Source: Aquila chrysaetos chrysaetos
Lineage: Eukaryota; Chordata; Aves; Accipitriformes; Accipitridae
Length of the DNA: 64,000 nucleotides
Assembly: GCF_900496995.4 (NCBI RefSeq)
Contig: NC_044029.1
Coordinates: 4,960,001-5,024,000, forward strand
Reading direction: 5' to 3'
This document shows, piece by piece, positions 24,312-63,000 of the stretch. The notes under the pieces are model-generated. The model was not told the origin of the DNA. It did not search any database and saw only the letters and a program-made list of their open reading frames with translations. The first letter of the stretch is position 1. Each line of letters opens with the position of its first letter. Position numbers and translations under genes: made by a program.

Positions 24312-24335
24312 ATGTTCAGGCGGATTCTGCAGCGG
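24312..24335 (+). CDS. EEA1: EEA1 exon 1 (coding part): start codon and MFRRILQR
   Basis: The eight codons read MFRRILQR, the known EEA1 amino terminus (mammals have MFRRILQR or MLRRILQR). The ATG sits in a strong context (gccaccATG), and an in-frame TGA 33 bases upstream closes the frame. The exon ends in phase 0 at a GTAAGG donor (24,336). This is one of the shortest coding first exons and would be missed by ORF length filters. Confidence 0.95.
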
Positions 24336-32905: not shown

Positions 32906-32998
32906 ACTCCGGGTAGAGGTGGGTCTCAGAGCTCGGATTCGGATTCATCTGCCACGCCAGGAAATGCCGTGGATGTGAACAACGAAGGCTCCTCCGAG
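32906..32998 (+). CDS. EEA1: EEA1 exon 2: Ser/Asp-rich linker before the Rab5-binding finger
   Basis: Thirty-one codons, phase 0 at both ends, begin TPGRGGSQSSDSDSSATPGN and end NNEGSSE. They match residues 9-39 of mammalian EEA1 in length and most positions. The acceptor is a strong pyrimidine tract ending TTCAG; the donor is GAG|GTACTG, acceptable but not optimal. The segment is acidic and serine-rich with likely casein-kinase-type sites and is probably disordered. Because both junctions are phase 0, a phase-0/0 cassette could be inserted after it without changing the frame (see 36,020-36,142). Confidence 0.95.
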
Positions 32999-35900
32999 GT
33001 ACTGTACACTGTACGTGGGACTGGAGTCTTCAACCTTGGGTGCTGTTGGGAGTAACTTTTGATGCCCTGCCTAAATAAACGAAATGCTGTACTAAATAAA
33101 CAGAAGTGTCATCTTCTAAGAATTGGTTGTTATTTAAATAAAAAAAGGAAGGCTAGGCCATATTTATATGTGACCGTGAATTAGGTTTATCTATCTAAAT
33201 GGTCACAAGCAATTCTTCCTGTAATCCTAGAGATGAATTATTAAAATTAAAAGCAATGAGACATAAGCTTAAGACTCCTCGTTAATAAATCTTTTATGAG
33301 AGTTCCGAAAAATGAGGCTTAACATTTTATCACACTTGTACTCCCTTTCCACCTTGCTTCTGCTAAGCTAAAAATGTATACTGGAAACCACCTCCTCCTC
33401 CTTGTGAAATATCAAACATGTTGGGTTTTGTTTGGTATTGGTGTATAAATCTACCACTTGTAAATCCTACCCTTTTTTTTATGTGCTGTATGCCATGCTT
33501 AACCAGCAGAATAAGTTGTTATTCTTGCTTCAATCCCATATTACAATGTCTTTGGATTTACAGTGTTGTCAAATATTAACTCTGAAAAATGCAAACTGAC
33601 TTCACTGGCTGTTGAAGCTAGTTTGTGCTAATGTAGCCTGATTACCTAGCTTGAAAATGTTTCAAGCTTAGCATACAAATGCAGTGCAAGGTTAATGACT
33701 CCTATTACAGCATTAAAGGGAGCAAAGTGCCCTTTCTTACACTGAATAAAGTGTATGATGACTCAAATACTCCTATGTCTGCTATGATAAGAGATAAGAG
33801 AAACTTTCACTGTGCTGTTTAAAATCCTAATTGTGTTCGATCTGTGCATCTGCTTATTTCTTATTTCTTGAAGCCTTATTACAGTCAGTATGATCAGACA
33901 TTCCTTAATATTTTGCTGCATGTTATACATTTCACGCATTTGTGAGTCCAGATCTGTTTTGTACGTGTATTTACACTGTCCCTGAAGCAAATAAATATTC
34001 GTAAATTGCAGACTAAAATCTCATTACTTTTGTAGTTAATTAAGGCATAAAAATGTGCAATGACATAATTGCTTCTTTCCAAAGTTTGGCTAAAATTGCA
34101 CAATTCTGTTAACACGAGTGCAATATCAGTGACTGTACAGCTGGTGGGTGTCACAAGATACCTCAATACTAATGTAGTAGTATTGTCTTGACATAGGACA
34201 AGCTTTTAAAGTGGTGGTGTGCCTGCACTATTGCACCATTGCTACTGAGTCGAAAATGGGCCAGACCAAAGGCTGGCGTGTCACTTCTGGTTGATACTGT
34301 ATAACATGAAAAAGTATCTTTTAGTTGTCAGTAATTCCACCATCTGTTGCATTAATTACAAGTGGGGTGTTCTCCTTAGCGTACTATTTCAAAAACTATT
34401 TGAAACTGAGCTCTGAAGCTGGTGATGGGTTTTTACTCTCCTGCGATTCACGCGTTACCGCGTGCAACTCAAGCCTTTCTTGTTGGTCTTCCTTTTCCTG
34501 TGCAGCTGGCCTGAGGTGTTGGCTCTCTGAGAGCTTCTCTCCAGGAGCACCGTAGCCAGACTTTGCAGAACGTTTGCTCTCCATTTTATCATTACGTTCC
34601 TGCCTGGTTCTCCAGTATTATGTAAAGTCAGAAATCCAGTTGACTTATTTTCACTCCAGTTTCTTGGCTAGAGTTTCTAATTTGTATTGCTGCAAGATTC
34701 AAATGGAGAATAATTGTTAAATCCGTGCAGATTCTCATGTTTTCTACCTCCTCAAGCCTGGTGGAAATCAGTCCTGATTTTTGAGAATAGTAGTATGAGA
34801 CAAAAGGAGTGGGGAAGTCTGAATTCAAACTGTTCCTTGCTCAAGGAGAGGTGAAGGTCTCCTTTAATCCCATCTGTGGCCGCGTCAGTACTTCAGATCA
34901 CACGTAGACCTGTAGTCCAGTCTAGATACATCTTTTATTCACTGTGCAGTCTGCCCAAGGAGGAAGCGTTTGAACCTATCCTACATTTGTAGCTTAGGTC
35001 CCAGTGCAACTCTGTCTGCAGTACAGGGTTGCTAAATATTCAATGCTTGCAGTGAGTCCACTGGTGTGCTTTACGCTTTCATTAGTGTAATGTGGCTGCG
35101 TTAGCTAGATGTGTGTGCCACAGACATCCTTTTTGGAAGGGGCCTTAACCTTTCCATGCATGCACGGAGGGTTGTGTTCAGTCTGTTCTGCCTGCCTCTG
35201 TAGTGCTCTGCCACCGAGGCGCAGGCATCCTCCGGCCAGCGGCGTGGGGCAGAGCACTTGACTCTCCACCCTGCTTTTTCTAGGGGTTTAAGCATGTAGC
35301 GCGTGTCTTGAAGATGTAAAGCTGTTGTCCTTCAGAAACCAATTTAACTTTTGGCTTTGGTAAATCTCTGGTGAGCATACTGAGGTGGTTTGTTTTTTTT
35401 TTTTTTCATTCTACCAAGGTGGTTTGGTTTTTTTCATTCTACCGAGGTGTTTTGTTTTGGTTTTTTTTTTTTCATTCTACCAAGGAAGGTACGTATTTTT
35501 CCCTAAGTGACCATGCCAGCCAGGCGTGCAGCTGTGCTGGCGCCTAGGCCTCTCCTGCTGCCGCAAACTTGCTTATTAATTTAGAGGGGTATTTCTGCAA
35601 TTTCACCGCACCACTCTTGTCTCTCTCTGTGAAACATCTGAACACCCTTGTGGGAAACTGTGTGATGGATCTGACATGAAGCCTTATAATGGTCCATTCA
35701 CAATTTGTTATGCAGCTTATTCCTCTGTCACATGAAGGGGGTACCAAGAGTGCCAGGAAAACATAGTAGTACGCAGCATGGTGCTAGCCTTTAAAGTGTG
35801 TTTTAGATTTGTTTATTTTCATGTTCTTAATAACTGTTCCTTCTTGCCTTTTCCATGGTATTGATATGTGGTTTGCAAAAACTATCTTTCCAAAAGGAAA

Positions 35901-36019
35901 ACAGACTTTGCTTTTGGTGATTGTAGAGAACCTTCAGCCTAAGAATTTGAACAGCATTTGATTCCAGATCTGCTTTTTTGTCTTTATTAGTTTCTTAAAA
36001 TCAAATATACATTCCACAG
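32999..36019 (+). other. EEA1: EEA1 intron 2, segment before the candidate cassette exon
   Basis: Mostly AT-rich unique sequence without a recognisable exon. It contains a three-unit, T-rich minisatellite at 35,382-35,486. The last 60 bases show a pyrimidine-rich stretch and end ATTCCACAG. Confidence 0.7.
35382..35486. repeat. Three-copy T-rich minisatellite
   Basis: Three units of about 34-37 bases each combine a gaggtggtttg-like block, a T run of 7-14 and cattctacca/cattctaccg. The copies differ by a few substitutions and T-run length, which indicates local duplication. Confidence 0.85.
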
Positions 36020-36142
36020 GGCTTCATCTGTCCACTATGTATGAAAGTGTGTGTAACTCCCACTGATCTGTCTGAACATTACCAGAATGAGCACGCTGGG
36101 ACAGAAGGAAGACAGGAGCTTCGTGACCTCCCAGCTGTTACT
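36020..36142 (+). CDS. EEA1: Candidate cassette exon: second EEA1-type C2H2 zinc finger
   Basis: After an ATTCCACAG acceptor, 41 codons read GFICPLCMKVCVTPTDLSEH, then YQNEHAGTEG and a tail ending LPAVT, followed by a GTGGGT donor at 36,143. The finger spacing is C-x2-C-x12-H-x4-H, identical to exon 3. Positions corresponding to human Phe41, Ile42, Pro44, Met47, Leu56 and Tyr60 are all kept; several of these are known Rab5 contacts. The first nine residues equal those of exon 3 although five codons differ, all silently. Phase is 0 at both ends, so it fits between exons 2 and 3. A second possible donor (TTG|GTAATG, 36,176) would extend the exon to 52 codons with a hydrophobic tail. It could be a genuine alternative exon, or a relic that has lost splicing. 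Confidence 0.65.
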
Positions 36143-36744
36143 GTGGGTCTTGTTTATTTTGTTTCAATAGCTTTGGTAATGGGCTGCTTTAAATGAACAT
36201 ACATCTTTTCTTGTGGCTTGGGTGTCAGCTTTTTAAATTGTTTCATTTGATTCCTTGCTGATACATAATTTGATCTCTTATGCAAGATTCCAAAGTATAC
36301 ATTCAGCAGAAGAATTAATCTGTGTCTAGCTTTCTGGTTTGCAGTTGTCTCTCACATGAAACATTTGCAGTATTGGGAGACTTGCAGTCACCAATGTATT
36401 CTTTTTGAGCAGCTTTTGCTGACTCAGTATAGTGATAAATGTGGTATCGGATCTGGTACATCCTTTGTGAAAAGAAATGTTTCGAGCTCTTATTAGCTAA
36501 CTATTTTTAAAGCAGATTTCTAGTGGGAGATAGGTACATTGGGTAAAAGATGGAACAGAGGACAGGAATATAAAAAATTTAGAAGCTTCTCTTCTTGAAC
36601 ATGTTTAAGAGCCTTATGTATTGCAGCAACATTATAAAAATAATTATAAAAACAATTTTTTACTTAGAATTTTATTGGAATTTTTTATGCCCCCAACAAA
36701 ATGCAAAGCCTGTCTCAGTTAATAGACATTATAAATAGTGCATT

Positions 36745-36830
36745 TCTACATTCTTCCAATTGTGGAGCGTAAAACTGCACAATTAAAACAAAGGGTGCAG
36801 TTTTACACTCCTTAATTGGAAGAATTTAGA
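36745..36830. repeat. Long inverted repeat forming a miRNA-like hairpin
   Basis: Positions 36,751-36,780 pair with 36,795-36,824 at 27 of 30 positions around a 14-nt loop. One of the three differences is a G:U pair in + strand RNA. The pairing continues outward for six more positions (36,745-36,750 with 36,825-36,830) with one mismatch. Stem length, near-perfect pairing and small loop are compatible with a pri-miRNA-like hairpin or a tiny palindromic mobile remnant. I cannot match it to a known miRNA. Confidence 0.8.
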
Positions 36831-47068: not shown

Positions 47069-47196
47069 GGCTTTATTTGTCCTCTCTGTATGAAGTCTCA
47101 TGGATCAGCTGAGGAGCTGTTCAAGCACTATGAAGCAGTTCATAATTCTGGCATTGATTCAACTCATGGAGGGGAAGGTCATCTGTCACCGGAAAG
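47069..47196 (+). CDS. EEA1: EEA1 exon 3: N-terminal Rab5-binding C2H2 zinc finger
   Basis: The exon runs from GFICPLCMKSHGSAEELFKH through YEAVH to HLSPE plus the first two bases of an Arg codon (phase 0 in, phase 2 out). Cys4, Cys7, His20 and His25 of the exon form the C-x2-C-x12-H-x4-H zinc site. This finger binds GTP-loaded Rab5, and Phe2, Ile3, Met8 and Tyr21 of the exon correspond to known contact residues. The tail STHGGEGHLSPER resembles the mammalian linker to the coiled coil. The acceptor is a T-rich tract ending ATAATAG; the donor is AG|GTGCAA. The exon is 128 bases long, with the same residue count as in mammals. Confidence 0.97.
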
Positions 47197-50829: not shown

Positions 50830-50884
50830 AGATGAAGTATCACTGCTCCGACAAGAAGTCCAAGACTTGCAAGCTTCGCTGAAG
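50830..50884 (+). CDS. EEA1: EEA1 exon 4: start of the coiled coil
   Basis: The first base completes the Arg codon split with exon 3. The following 18 codons read DEVSLLRQEVQDLQASLK, nearly identical to mammalian EEA1. Hydrophobic residues at heptad spacing (V, L, V, L, L) begin the long parallel dimeric coiled coil that extends from the Rab5-binding head. The donor is AAG|GTTGGA. Confidence 0.96.
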
Positions 50885-51073: not shown

Positions 51074-51911
51074 GTAATTGCTTTAAAATACTTGAAGCAG
51101 GTTTATCATCAGCATTGACATTGAAGATTAATACCTTTTTTGTAAGGCACGTGGCCTGATTTAGTTAGTTCCATAATTTGAATATTGACGTGTTCTTGAA
51201 AACAAAGCTAGCTGTCTCTCCACAATGCAACTGCATACATAAATCTGAAGAACAAAGTCAGAACAGATAATGATTCTTCTATACTACTCCGTACAAGTTC
51301 AGTTCAGACTTTTGCTTCTGTTGGGCTTATTCAGAACTCAGTTTATTAAAGAAAATAAATTGAATGTGGTGTTTCATCTGTTATGAGAAAGGGTGATGGG
51401 GTCTTTCTTGTAAGAACTTTTGGAGAACAGTAGTGTGATTTCACAGATGTCCAGATGAACTGAACAAACAAGGCAAGGCAAATTGTGGTGTGCTGTGCCG
51501 TAAGGAAGCTCTCGCTTCTTTTATTACTGTGAGCTACTTAAATACTAGATTGTCACAAACCTCAGAAATTGCTTTCTGACAGAATGCCTTCTCAGAATGT
51601 ATTTAATGATGTCTGTAACCTCTGTCTTTAGGGCAGATTTCAATATTGAGGAAAGGGAAGGGAGGGGATTGTTACTGGAGTCTTGCAAGTCTGGAAGCCT
51701 GATAGTGTAGTGATACATGAAATGGAAAATCATCTTGGCCTTTTCCAGTTTTCCAGATGTAACTGTTTGAAGTCTGGTATTTTTATACCGCTGTGCAGTA
51801 TTTAAGCACAGAAGTCTTTATTTCCCTGTCTTTTCCAAAAATGGGGTGAGCTTTGGAAGTAGTAGTTTTTATTCCTACTGTCTAATGATGTGTTTATTCT
51901 GTTTTCTTAAG
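51074..51911 (+). other. EEA1: EEA1 intron 5 (838 nt)
   Basis: AT-rich intronic sequence with no recognisable element. It ends in a GTTTTCTTAAG acceptor. Confidence 0.85.
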
Positions 51912-51951
51912 GATTCTAAGTCTGATGGATTGACAACGGCTACATCTGCAG
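51912..51951 (+). CDS. EEA1: EEA1 exon 6: short linker in the coiled coil
   Basis: Thirteen codons plus one base read DSKSDGLTTATSA, corresponding to the poorly conserved EAKPDGLVTDSSA-like linker of mammals. The Asp-Gly-Leu core and exact length match. It interrupts the heptads and is probably a flexible hinge. Donor GCAG|GTGGCT leaves phase 1. At 40 bases it is easily missed by gene finders. Confidence 0.88.
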
Positions 51952-52845
51952 GTGGCTAACATTTTATTATATTAATTTCTGCACTGTTCTGGAATTTCTG
52001 GTTGTTTTTTTTTTTTTTTCACTGTAGCTTTTAGGTTTAGGAAAAAGCACTTTTGGTAAATTTAAGAGCTGGAAAGCTGGAATGGTGCAATTACTGGACA
52101 AAAAGTTCATTGTAAGTGCTTAAGATAGATAGCTCTTGATAGCTGTAGTCTGGAGAAATGTTCCAGAGGCTCGGTGTCTGTAATGTCTAGAAGTGAGACA
52201 GGAGTTCTCCTGACTCTGAAAGCAGTTCTCATGAGTAGTTTTGAACATGGTTTTAATTATTTCATATATTCAAGCGTTCAATACAAGTCTTTTGCTGAGA
52301 AAGACAGTGATAGTTGATACTTAAACTCTAGCATTTGTCAGGGCTGGTTTTATTTAGTGTTTTTCTGTACTGATTGCTAGCAAAGAAAACCATGAATTTT
52401 GGGGGTTTTTTTGGTTTGTTTTGTTTTGTTTTGTTTTGTTTTGTTTTGCAGACCAATAATTTTTGCTCTTTGTTTTTCTCCATGAGGCACTCATGGAATA
52501 AAATTTTCCTTATGTACGCATAAAGTATCGACTGATGATGATTAAAGAGCTTTTAATTGCAGTTCGGGGCTCAGAATTCAGCAGCATGTTGCAGTGATCT
52601 CAAGAGCTATTTGTGACCAGTGAAAACCAATATGTACCTAATCCTGCAGAGTACTCGACTAGTGACAGGTTCCAGCATCATGCTTGTAGATATTTAACTT
52701 CAATAAAGTTGTTCACTTTGCTAAGCTAATTGAGTGTTAGGTGAATTTGGATTATTTATTTCCCTGCTCTGGTTCAGTACGGGTGTGAGTAACTGTGTTG
52801 TCCTAGCTCTTCCAGAAAATAATACTATTCTTTTTATGGAAATAG
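51952..52845 (+). other. EEA1: EEA1 intron 6 (894 nt to the preferred acceptor)
   Basis: It contains a T run near 52,005 and a (TTTTG)n repeat at about 52,410-52,449. The 3' end has three AG acceptors in succession (exons starting at 52,807, 52,816 or 52,846), all in the same frame. Confidence 0.75.
52410..52449. repeat. (TTTTG)n pentanucleotide microsatellite
   Basis: About seven TTTTG units end directly in CAG (AG at 52,450-52,451). This makes a perfect-looking but apparently unused pyrimidine tract plus acceptor about 390 bases before exon 7. Confidence 0.9.
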
Positions 52846-60052: not shown

Positions 60053-63000
60053 GTGAGAATGCTGTTATTTCCTATGCTTATCAGCTCACATTAAAATGGA
60101 AACACGTCACACATTGCCTTGGGAAGCACTGAAGACTGTAACAAAACACTTCTTGGTGTTGCAGAAGTTGAGAATTTCTTTGCCATTTTGCTTAACACGA
60201 GGGATATCATAATGTACAAGCAAACGCTGTATTTTAACGATCATCACTGTGTTACAACTGAAATCCTATGGGTTGTTATGATTACAGATTTCTAATTGCT
60301 GCAGTTTATGCTTACCTATTATTAAGCAGTATTGCCATCTCACACATTAAAAGAAAAAAGTACCCTTTGAAATATTACGATGTTTGCCTGAAAATCATAA
60401 TTCAGAAGACATATTGAGCTCTCTTCATTGGTTTTCCCGTTTCTTAGCTTTTAGATTGTACTCCTGTCATATTTTCTGGCCATTTATCAGTCATGCACAA
60501 TAGAAAATGGAAATAAATTCCAGAAGCTTCTCAACTTACAAATATTCCTTGAGAGCTTTCATCAAAGCGCTTTGACCTTGCTGTATTTTGTATTTGCATT
60601 AAGAAAGCATATGTTGTGGGGTAATAAATGGAGGTAAGGGAGGAAAGGAGACAAAGAGAAAGATGCATACTGCTTTTTGTTGTGTGTATATATAACACTG
60701 TATCTCAACTGTACATATTACATATATGTATTTACCTGCAACCTTGTCAATCTTGGAAAATAGGAAAGGGCAGAGACCAAACAGTGCGTATTTAATGTAA
60801 TCAGTATTGGAACCGGCGCTGTTTAATATCTTTGTCGGTGACACGGACAGTGGGATTGAGTGCACCCTCAGCAAGTTTGCCGACAACACCAAGCTGTGTG
60901 GTGGGGTCGACACGCTGGAGGGAAGGGATGCCATCCAGAGGGACCTGGACAGGCTTGAGAGGTGGGGCCTCTGCAAACCTCATGAAGTTAAGGCCAAGTG
61001 CAAGGTCCTGCACATGGGTCGGGGCAATCCCAACCACAAATACAGGCTGGGCGATGAGTGGATTGAGAGCAGCCCTGCGGAGAAGTACTTGGGGGTGTTG
61101 GTTGATGAGAAGCTCAACACAACTTGGCAACGTGCGCTCGCAGCCCAGAAAGCCAACCGTATCCTGGGCTGCATCAAAAGGAGCGTGACCAGCAGGTCGA
61201 GGGAGGGGATTCTGCCCCTCTGCTCCGCTCTGGTGAGACCCCCCCTGCAGTACTGCCTCCAGCTCTGGGGTCCCCAACATAGGAAGGACATGGACCTGTT
61301 GGATCGGGTCCAGAGGAGGGCCATGAAGATGATCAGAGGGCTGGAGCACCTCTCCTATGAAGACAGGCTGAGAGAGTTGGGGTTGTTCAGCCTGGAGAAG
61401 AGAAGGCTCTGGGGAGACCTTACAGCAGCCTTCCAGTACTTAAAGGGGGCCTACAGGAAAGCTGGAGGAAGACTTCTTACCAGGGTCTGTAGTGATAGGA
61501 TGAGGGGCAATGGTTTGAAACTGCAAGAGGGTAGATTTAAATTAGATATAAGAAGAAATTCTTTACGATACGGGTGGTGAGACACTGGAAGAGGTCGCCC
61601 AGAGAGGTTGTGGCTGCCCCATCCCTGGCAGTGTTCAAGGCCAGGCTCGATGGGGCTTTGAGCAACCTGGTCTAGTGGAAGGTGTCCCTGCCCAGGGCAG
61701 GGGGGTTGGAACTAGGTGATCTTTAAGGTCCCTTGCAACCCAAAGCGTTCTATGATGATAATCTAATATTAAAGCAGCATTTGCAAAGAATATGAGAAGG
61801 TGCAATTAAAATTCGGTAAATTAAACTTGCCTTTAGTAGCATGACTCTTGGTTTGGCTCATTCAATCAGGTGCAGAACTGAGGTGGCAAGAATTGTCATG
61901 CTGTACTTTTCCGCAGACCAGCAACACTGAATAAAGCTTCTGGCAAAATTATTGCTATACAATAGAGAGCCGTTGCCTGAATATATTGCTACCCCATTAA
62001 CAATGTGGAGTGAAACAGATCGATGCATAAGATAACCATACTTCAAGAGAGTGTCCTCTGCTGTGTCAGGTTAATGCCAAATACCACCTGAGGAATAGGA
62101 AGAAGTGGCAGCGAGCTACTTTTCCTCTTTCAGTTTCAGTGACTTAAAGCAGTTTACAGACACCTCTTTATGCAGCTTTTTGGAAAAGCGATATCCATAA
62201 GAGTGGTATGCTAGCCAAGGAATCTTGGCCCTGGAGGACTTGGACCTAGAATTGGAAAAGGTTGGACTAGCTTCCCAAATAACAGAAATTGCTCCCACTT
62301 CAAACAGTTTGCTGTCCTTGACGAAGCTGTCGGGGAAGCGGGGGGAGCCATTAATGCAGGATAGAATGTATTGCATTTTGATACGTACATCCATTTATAA
62401 TTCCATTGCAATGTGGGAAGATATTTCTGTGCATTGACGCAGAGTTTTTCAAGCTTATGTACAACCTCAAGCAAGCAAGCTGTTTCTTACATTTTCAGGA
62501 GCTATACTGAGAAGAGCAGATGACAAGTAGATAAGATCAGTTCTCTCAGACCAGCAGGAACTGCCTTTCCTTCATTTATAAAACACTGTAATTACAGGGC
62601 TTGGCTTGCCTTGCAGAGGCCAGTAATGTCCTGTAGCCCAGGAGAGACCTAGTGTGTAAAACCAGCGTATTCCCTGAAGTATAAGACTTGCTGTAATTCT
62701 AAACCCATTGCATGTGGGTTTTTTTGTTTTCTTTTAGGGAAATTATGATCCATTATCTACAGGGAAAAATGCTTAGTTTCTAACCTTCTACTGACGTAAC
62801 TATTCTGAAATTTGATCACTGACCTCAGAGTTCGTTCTTTAATGCCTGGCCACTGTCGCTACTGACGTGTATTCCAAGGAGCAGTTATAAAAGAAGGGAT
62901 CAGGGTGGTGTTCCCCCTTGTACCTTGTGAGCTTTGAAGGCTGAGGACTCTTTGTTGAGTCCTGTAACATACTCTCATTTCCTCTTTCTTTTCTGTGGAA

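Follow-up and report, generated by a model that had tools for sequence, protein, structure and literature searches.

Early endosome antigen 1 (EEA1) is a classic early-endosome tether, and the accessible part of one report describes it with one N-terminal Rab5-binding zinc finger, another site for Rab5 close to its FYVE domain, and Rab21 as a further interacting partner (PMC12162657). According to the available portion of another report, the N-terminal finger is needed for Rab22a binding, and residues 1-70 of rabenosyn-5 include a Rab5-binding domain (PMC3521694). In excerpts of a cattle study EEA1 appears among the differentially spliced genes, with the exon not named there (PMC8948961); a second cattle splicing study mentions EEA1 in its available part (PMC12237680), and PMC2576459, as far as its accessible text goes, concerns expression. 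We found no description of a second EEA1 finger, or of an isoform carrying one, in titles and abstract openings of the open literature, and none of a second finger in the available text of PMC8948961, PMC2576459, PMC12162657, PMC5624781 and PMC3521694; human or mouse database annotation may hold one. The finger type and cassette exons are both already known, and one tandem-finger product, a Malurus record discussed below, has already been deposited. If a conserved second finger exon does exist in EEA1, the number of fingers, and so the avidity of the tether or its choice of Rab, would be changeable by splicing.

Results

An extra exon within EEA1 intron 2

The window, by which we mean the whole 64,000-nucleotide stretch of DNA analysed, holds on its + strand the 5' part of an EEA1 gene that is recognisable as avian by its likeness to the Merops nubicus record. 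Within intron 2 lies an extra exon, referred to here as ALT, and the features are as follows (a slash marks an exon boundary).

24312..24335, + strand: EEA1 exon 1 (E1), coding part (MFRRILQR), phase 0 donor
32906..32998, + strand: EEA1 exon 2 (E2), 31 codons, phase 0/0
36004..36020, + strand: ALT acceptor, AATATACATTCCACAG/G, weak polypyrimidine tract, matrix score 4.1
36020..36142, + strand: extra exon ALT in EEA1 intron 2, 41 codons, phase 0/0, putative second EEA1-type C2H2 finger
36143..36163, + strand: ALT donor GTGGGT, then a T-rich intron start, similar in relatives and read as intron
36143..36196, + strand: read-through frame VGLVYFVSIALVMGCFK, ending at a stop codon (36194-36196), used only if the donor is skipped
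47069..47196, + strand: EEA1 exon 3 (E3), 128 nt, phase 0 to 2, with the known Rab5-binding finger
50830..50884, + strand: EEA1 exon 4 (E4); directly after ALT it gives AGA TGA, a stop

An earlier reading of the sequence alone had noticed 41 stop-free codons between an AG acceptor and a GT donor, and the same was read directly here: the boundaries are ATTCCACAG/GGCTTCATCTGT...GTTACT/GTGGGT, and the translation is GFICPLCMKVCVTPTDLSEHYQNEHAGTEGRQELRDLPAVT. Splice sites were scored with splice matrices, with E8 left out of the comparison. On these, the ALT donor scores 4.0, much as do the donors of E2 (3.1), E3 (4.0) and E4 (3.7), and lower than those of E1 (9.0) and E9 (10.8), and the ALT acceptor scores below those of E2 (10.3) and E3 (10.0) but not below that of E4 (3.2). 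A weak acceptor together with a donor level with those of E2 to E4 would fit a regulated exon.

Two further regions of the window are recorded here as side observations. Downstream of the last recognised EEA1 exon, a long open frame at 60801-61577 resembles an avian CR1 LINE reverse transcriptase. At 51909-51956 the frame KDSKSDGLTTATSAGG looks like the squamate EEA1 exon ESKPDGLASAAS (a weak tblastn match, E 1.5); the Merops nubicus EEA1 model (P0007) is without a ESKPDGLASAAS-type exon and has the intron-like residues VIALKYLKQTIILFFF in its place.

ALT in other species

A full-length search with E1-E2-ALT as query, in a database clustered at 90% identity, picked out seven EEA1 proteins among 70 candidates; six belong to squamates and the seventh to a bird (the Merops nubicus record). 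ALT is absent from the N-termini of these seven full-length proteins in the clustered database, where the finger of exon 3 comes straight after exon 2; this counts against a form with ALT, though clustering at 90% may hide isoforms. In a short-frame search each of the 11 candidates yielded a protein with ALT sequence, and a profile search returned 33 matches from 336 candidates, 21 of them with ALT sequence at E 2.3e-12 or better. These 21 carriers comprise the 11 from the short-frame search and ten new ones; among the remaining 12 profile matches (E 0.008 to 7.9), which are GFICPLC fingers other than ALT, one is named rabenosyn-5 (P0041). Named carriers are the birds Athene cunicularia, Amazona collaria, Bubo bubo, Nothoprocta perdicaria and Malurus melanocephalus and the turtle Chrysemys picta bellii, and the other fifteen are frames from public contigs. 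A search of viral_contigs with alignment A1 gave 24 pattern matches, none confirmed, and a degenerate DNA pattern gave 0 matches in viral_contigs and 0 in genome_contigs.

Two records bear directly on splicing. The first, P0020, is a deposited NCBI/nr/UniRef entry of 123 residues, named 'early endosome antigen 1 [Malurus melanocephalus]', which consists of exon 1, exon 2, the ALT finger and the exon 3 finger; ALT ends in it exactly where the donor of the window predicts, and the record stops at the end of exon 3. The sequence-only reading had proposed that ALT, in phase 0/0, could be included between exons 2 and 3, and P0020 has exactly the product so predicted. The second, P0024, is 96 residues long, comes from contigs no longer than 930 bp and carries E1-E2-ALT without introns, continuing past the ALT donor into the intron. 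Its N-terminus looks like that of mammalian EEA1, presumably placing it in a group that we call mammal-like on this basis. The lack of introns points to spliced RNA (or a retrocopy of such RNA), so that this contig cluster implies use of the ALT acceptor in RNA, whereas the run beyond the donor indicates that its RNA did not use that donor. The source label 'lgn' presumably denotes Logan assemblies of SRA runs (PMC12424806). The E2-ALT junction was thus seen in one intronless contig cluster, and ALT-E3 only in the deposited Malurus record.

Five further frames (P0022, P0023, P0025, P0027 and P0028) have ALT of the P0024 type with an intron-like upstream part, and P0019 holds only the part after the finger. 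In P0009, P0010, P0015, P0017 and P0018, which are short UniRef records, ALT is joined to other upstream sequence, and in P0017 and P0018 to other downstream sequence too. These outer parts look, in our judgement, like annotation artefacts and probably are such, and we rejected the five records as proof of splicing, taking them as evidence of sequence only. In the owl and parrot records among them (P0009, P0010 and P0017) the ALT finger is joined upstream to MKGDPR or MKGVPGVPGKH, and the window encodes MKGVPRVPGKH at about 35732-35764, some 260 bases upstream of ALT; this junction is probably an annotation artefact as well, but it could be an alternative upstream exon. A third type of ALT, MKMC[VI]TATDL..HYQN.H with 42 codons, occurs in P0021, P0026 and P0029.

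Consequences of ALT inclusion and the end of the coding part

Inserted between exons 2 and 3, ALT keeps the frame open, and its splice sites are usable (the donor level with those of E2 to E4, the acceptor weak), as expected of a cassette exon. Exon 2 ends in GAG, whose Glu adjoins whichever finger comes next; in the tandem product this Glu precedes ALT, and the exon 3 finger is preceded by Thr instead. The product E1-E2-ALT-E4 stops at once, so ALT cannot replace exon 3, and a mutually exclusive exon swap was ruled out. Reading through the donor in the window gives a 97-residue product and then a stop. Therefore, ALT can extend the protein or end it, and never replaces exon 3.

In the most probable of the rival readings, ALT is an alternative last exon and transcripts ending in intron 2 encode a mini-EEA1 of about 97 residues (39 residues, the ALT finger and linker, and a short tail), lacking coiled coil and FYVE domain, which would act as a soluble competitor for Rab5-family GTPases. 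This would account for the run of P0024 beyond the donor and for the 97-residue frame of the window, and an ATTAAA is present at 36782; however, P0024 could be unspliced pre-mRNA, and the Malurus record joins ALT to exon 3 at the donor. The sequence beyond the donor also argues against it. Compared with the DNA of the window, P0021 is out of frame over 36172-36215 and back in frame over 36216-36234, with a score reached by 0 of 300 shuffles, and P0016 is out of frame over 36166-36189 (p 0.023), while the tails of P0022, P0023, P0026 and P0029 could not be aligned significantly, in frame or out of it (p 0.09, 0.27, 0.28 and 0.16). The frame thus breaks past the donor in one relative (P0021) and probably in a second (P0016), and the contrast between a whole-codon ALT and a broken frame downstream points to a coding boundary near the donor at 36142. 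A hydrophobic tail (VGLVYFV...) is similar in birds and the mammal-like group, and we set aside its candidacy as a conserved C-terminus, given the shifted frame in P0021 and probably in P0016. On balance, we regard a mini-EEA1 as unlikely.

Likeness to exon 3 and origin of ALT

The ALT finger has the C-x2-C-x12-H-x4-H spacing of exon 3, with ligands C4, C7, H20 and H25 and the GF[IL]CPxC start of EEA1/rabenosyn-type fingers, and it is trailed by a 16-residue linker within the same exon. It shares 13 of 25 residues with the exon 3 finger. In the first nine codons there are five silent and no replacement differences, and codons 10-25 add three silent differences and 12 replacements. The spacing, the 13 identities and the five silent changes in nine codons had all been claimed from sequence alone, and recomputation bore them out. 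In tblastn, exon 3 matched ALT at E 6e-6, with all other non-self matches in the window at E of at least 0.47, and a degenerate DNA pattern for CPLCMK found two sites in the window, which are the two fingers (0 of 100 shuffles). Together with the 21 relatives, these two tests rule out a chance open frame. The best Pfam score of ALT, 19.4 bits, is below the cut-off of 27.5, a cut-off that does not discriminate here since the canonical exon 3 fails as well (24.6 against 27).

When about 2 kb around ALT and exon 3 were compared as DNA, they were alignable over 28 bases only (E 0.002), namely the AG of the acceptor plus 26 bases from the start of the exon; the second-best match (E 0.014) was not collinear. 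Since the flanks align no further than these 28 bases, any duplication would lie far back in time. The nine shared residues were also put through a simple simulation, with 3,000 trials at each of ten mutation loads. With one copy neutral, an identical protein with five or more silent codon differences never appeared (0 of 3,000 at every load); with both copies constrained, it appeared in 0.1 to 53% of trials.

An origin of the finger in another gene (rabenosyn-5-like), rather than in EEA1 exon 3, would be compatible with a cassette exon and concerns its ancestry only. The ALT of the window is about as close to exon 3 (13/25) as to five GFICPLC fingers from other proteins (12-14/25; five of the 12 such matches were compared), which leaves room for this idea, but ALT lies in the same gene, in an adjacent position and the same phase, with the same start GFICPLCMK, and turtle and mammal-like ALT share 14-15 of 25 residues with exon 3. 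Such an origin is therefore improbable in our view.

Conservation and selection

Position counts cover 20 relatives and the window, with P0019, which begins after the finger, left out of them and of alignment A3, and only 13 rows cover positions 1-7. C4 and C7 do not vary in these 13 rows, nor do L17, E19, H20, Y21 and H25 in all 21 rows. The count for M8 is biased, as its ATG is the start of many short frames. Over positions 10-25, each of the four residues in common with exon 3 is one of the five that are invariant out of 16 (p = 0.0027). The length of ALT is a whole number of codons in 18 of 18 relatives with a readable exon end (P0017, P0018 and P0019 left out), with 41 codons in eight and 42 in ten; the latter include the turtle and six mammal-like rows, and the window has 41. 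The rows are interrelated, and the protein-similarity searches behind them pick up intact frames more readily than broken ones; they therefore give support rather than proof. With this bias, and at the protein level, the pattern supports selection on the ALT protein across species. The proposal that an old exon duplication was kept by protein-level selection is likewise supported, ALT being present in birds, a turtle and the mammal-like group. In addition, ALT has constant or near-constant residues of its own, E19 (21/21), D16 (20/21) and C11 (19/21), which suggests that it may have a role of its own rather than being a mere copy of the exon 3 finger.

The same pattern bears on two weaker rivals. 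ALT could be a poison or regulatory exon, in which read-through or exon 3 skipping causes an early stop and less EEA1, and the sequence is kept for splicing control. Both ALT-E4 and read-through do end early, and the sequence just past the donor is similar in relatives too; however, plain inclusion preserves the frame, and the conserved positions are zinc ligands and those shared with exon 3, which makes this reading very unlikely. Least likely of all is a relic exon no longer spliced in, an option that the sequence-only reading had kept, or a conserved DNA element with an incidental open frame: although the acceptor is weak and the spliced records are just two (P0020 and P0024), there are 21 carriers, with ligands invariant where covered and whole-codon lengths in the 18 whose exon end is readable, the finger frame is intact in the 20 relatives covering it and in the window (in a sample biased towards intact frames), and the ALT finger shares 21/25 residues with the window in the turtle and 20/25 in two mammal-like rows, against 22/25 for the exon 3 finger between the window and human 3mjh.

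Fold and Rab-binding residues

In an AlphaFold2 model of the Malurus product, which is poor overall (mean pLDDT 58.7), the ALT finger (residues 41-60) has a pLDDT of about 89, and the known exon 3 finger itself only about 59. Foldseek placed 3mjh, a structure of the EEA1 finger with Rab5A, at rank 9 among many C2H2 fingers (target TM 0.75, rmsd 2.6, 47% identity, E 0.86), with no match below E 0.001; the aligned finger is not printed, and 47% identity to 3mjh fits ALT. By sequence, the best PDB match to ALT is 3mjh (E 0.0026), followed by a KCMF1 finger (E 0.0089). F2, I3, P5, M8 and Y21, presumed Rab5-contact positions, are kept in ALT.

Discussion

We consider it likely that EEA1 has at 36020-36142 a functional cassette exon that is used alternatively and yields two tandem C2H2 fingers on inclusion. 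The probable source of ALT is an ancient duplication of the exon for the Rab-binding finger, which would have occurred before the split of birds, turtles and, judging by the N-terminus of P0024, mammals. Inclusion of ALT between exons 2 and 3 would give an EEA1 with two tandem N-terminal C2H2 fingers, and a dimer with ALT would carry four. The extra finger, placed 16 linker residues upstream at the membrane-distal end of the tether, where capture would take place, would double the distal Rab sites per chain, and the tether would be expected to capture Rab5-family GTPases (Rab5, Rab22a and Rab21) more strongly or with a different selectivity.

The distribution of ALT suggests an amniote-conserved exon, and so a long-kept alternative form of EEA1 rather than a relic. 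More tentatively, amniotes may have kept a splice switch from single- to tandem-finger EEA1 for more than 300 million years, with ALT adapted to another Rab5-family member (Rab5, Rab22a or Rab21) or to another state of one. If this were true, endosome identity would depend in part on how the distal end of the tether is spliced.

Among known systems, the EEA1 exon 3 finger seen in 3mjh is the closest to ALT, with the same GFICPxCMK start, C-x2-C-x12-H-x4-H spacing, L17, H20-Y21 and phase 0 start. It differs from ALT at 12 of 25 residues in the window and ends in phase 2, whereas ALT ends in phase 0, is presumably alternative and has its own conserved E19, D16 and C11. The N-terminal Rab5-binding finger of rabenosyn-5 is of the same type and spacing as ALT (P0041), but it belongs to a different gene, and we saw no linkage between it and ALT. 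As in cassette exons formed by tandem duplication, ALT and exon 3 are adjacent and homologous, and inclusion preserves the frame; the two are not mutually exclusive, since ALT joined to exon 4 gives a stop. Muscleblind, a protein unrelated to EEA1, has RNA-binding CCCH fingers. In Drosophila its isoforms have one or two tandem zinc-finger motifs, so that there too the number of fingers varies within a gene, as described in the available part of PMC3315501.
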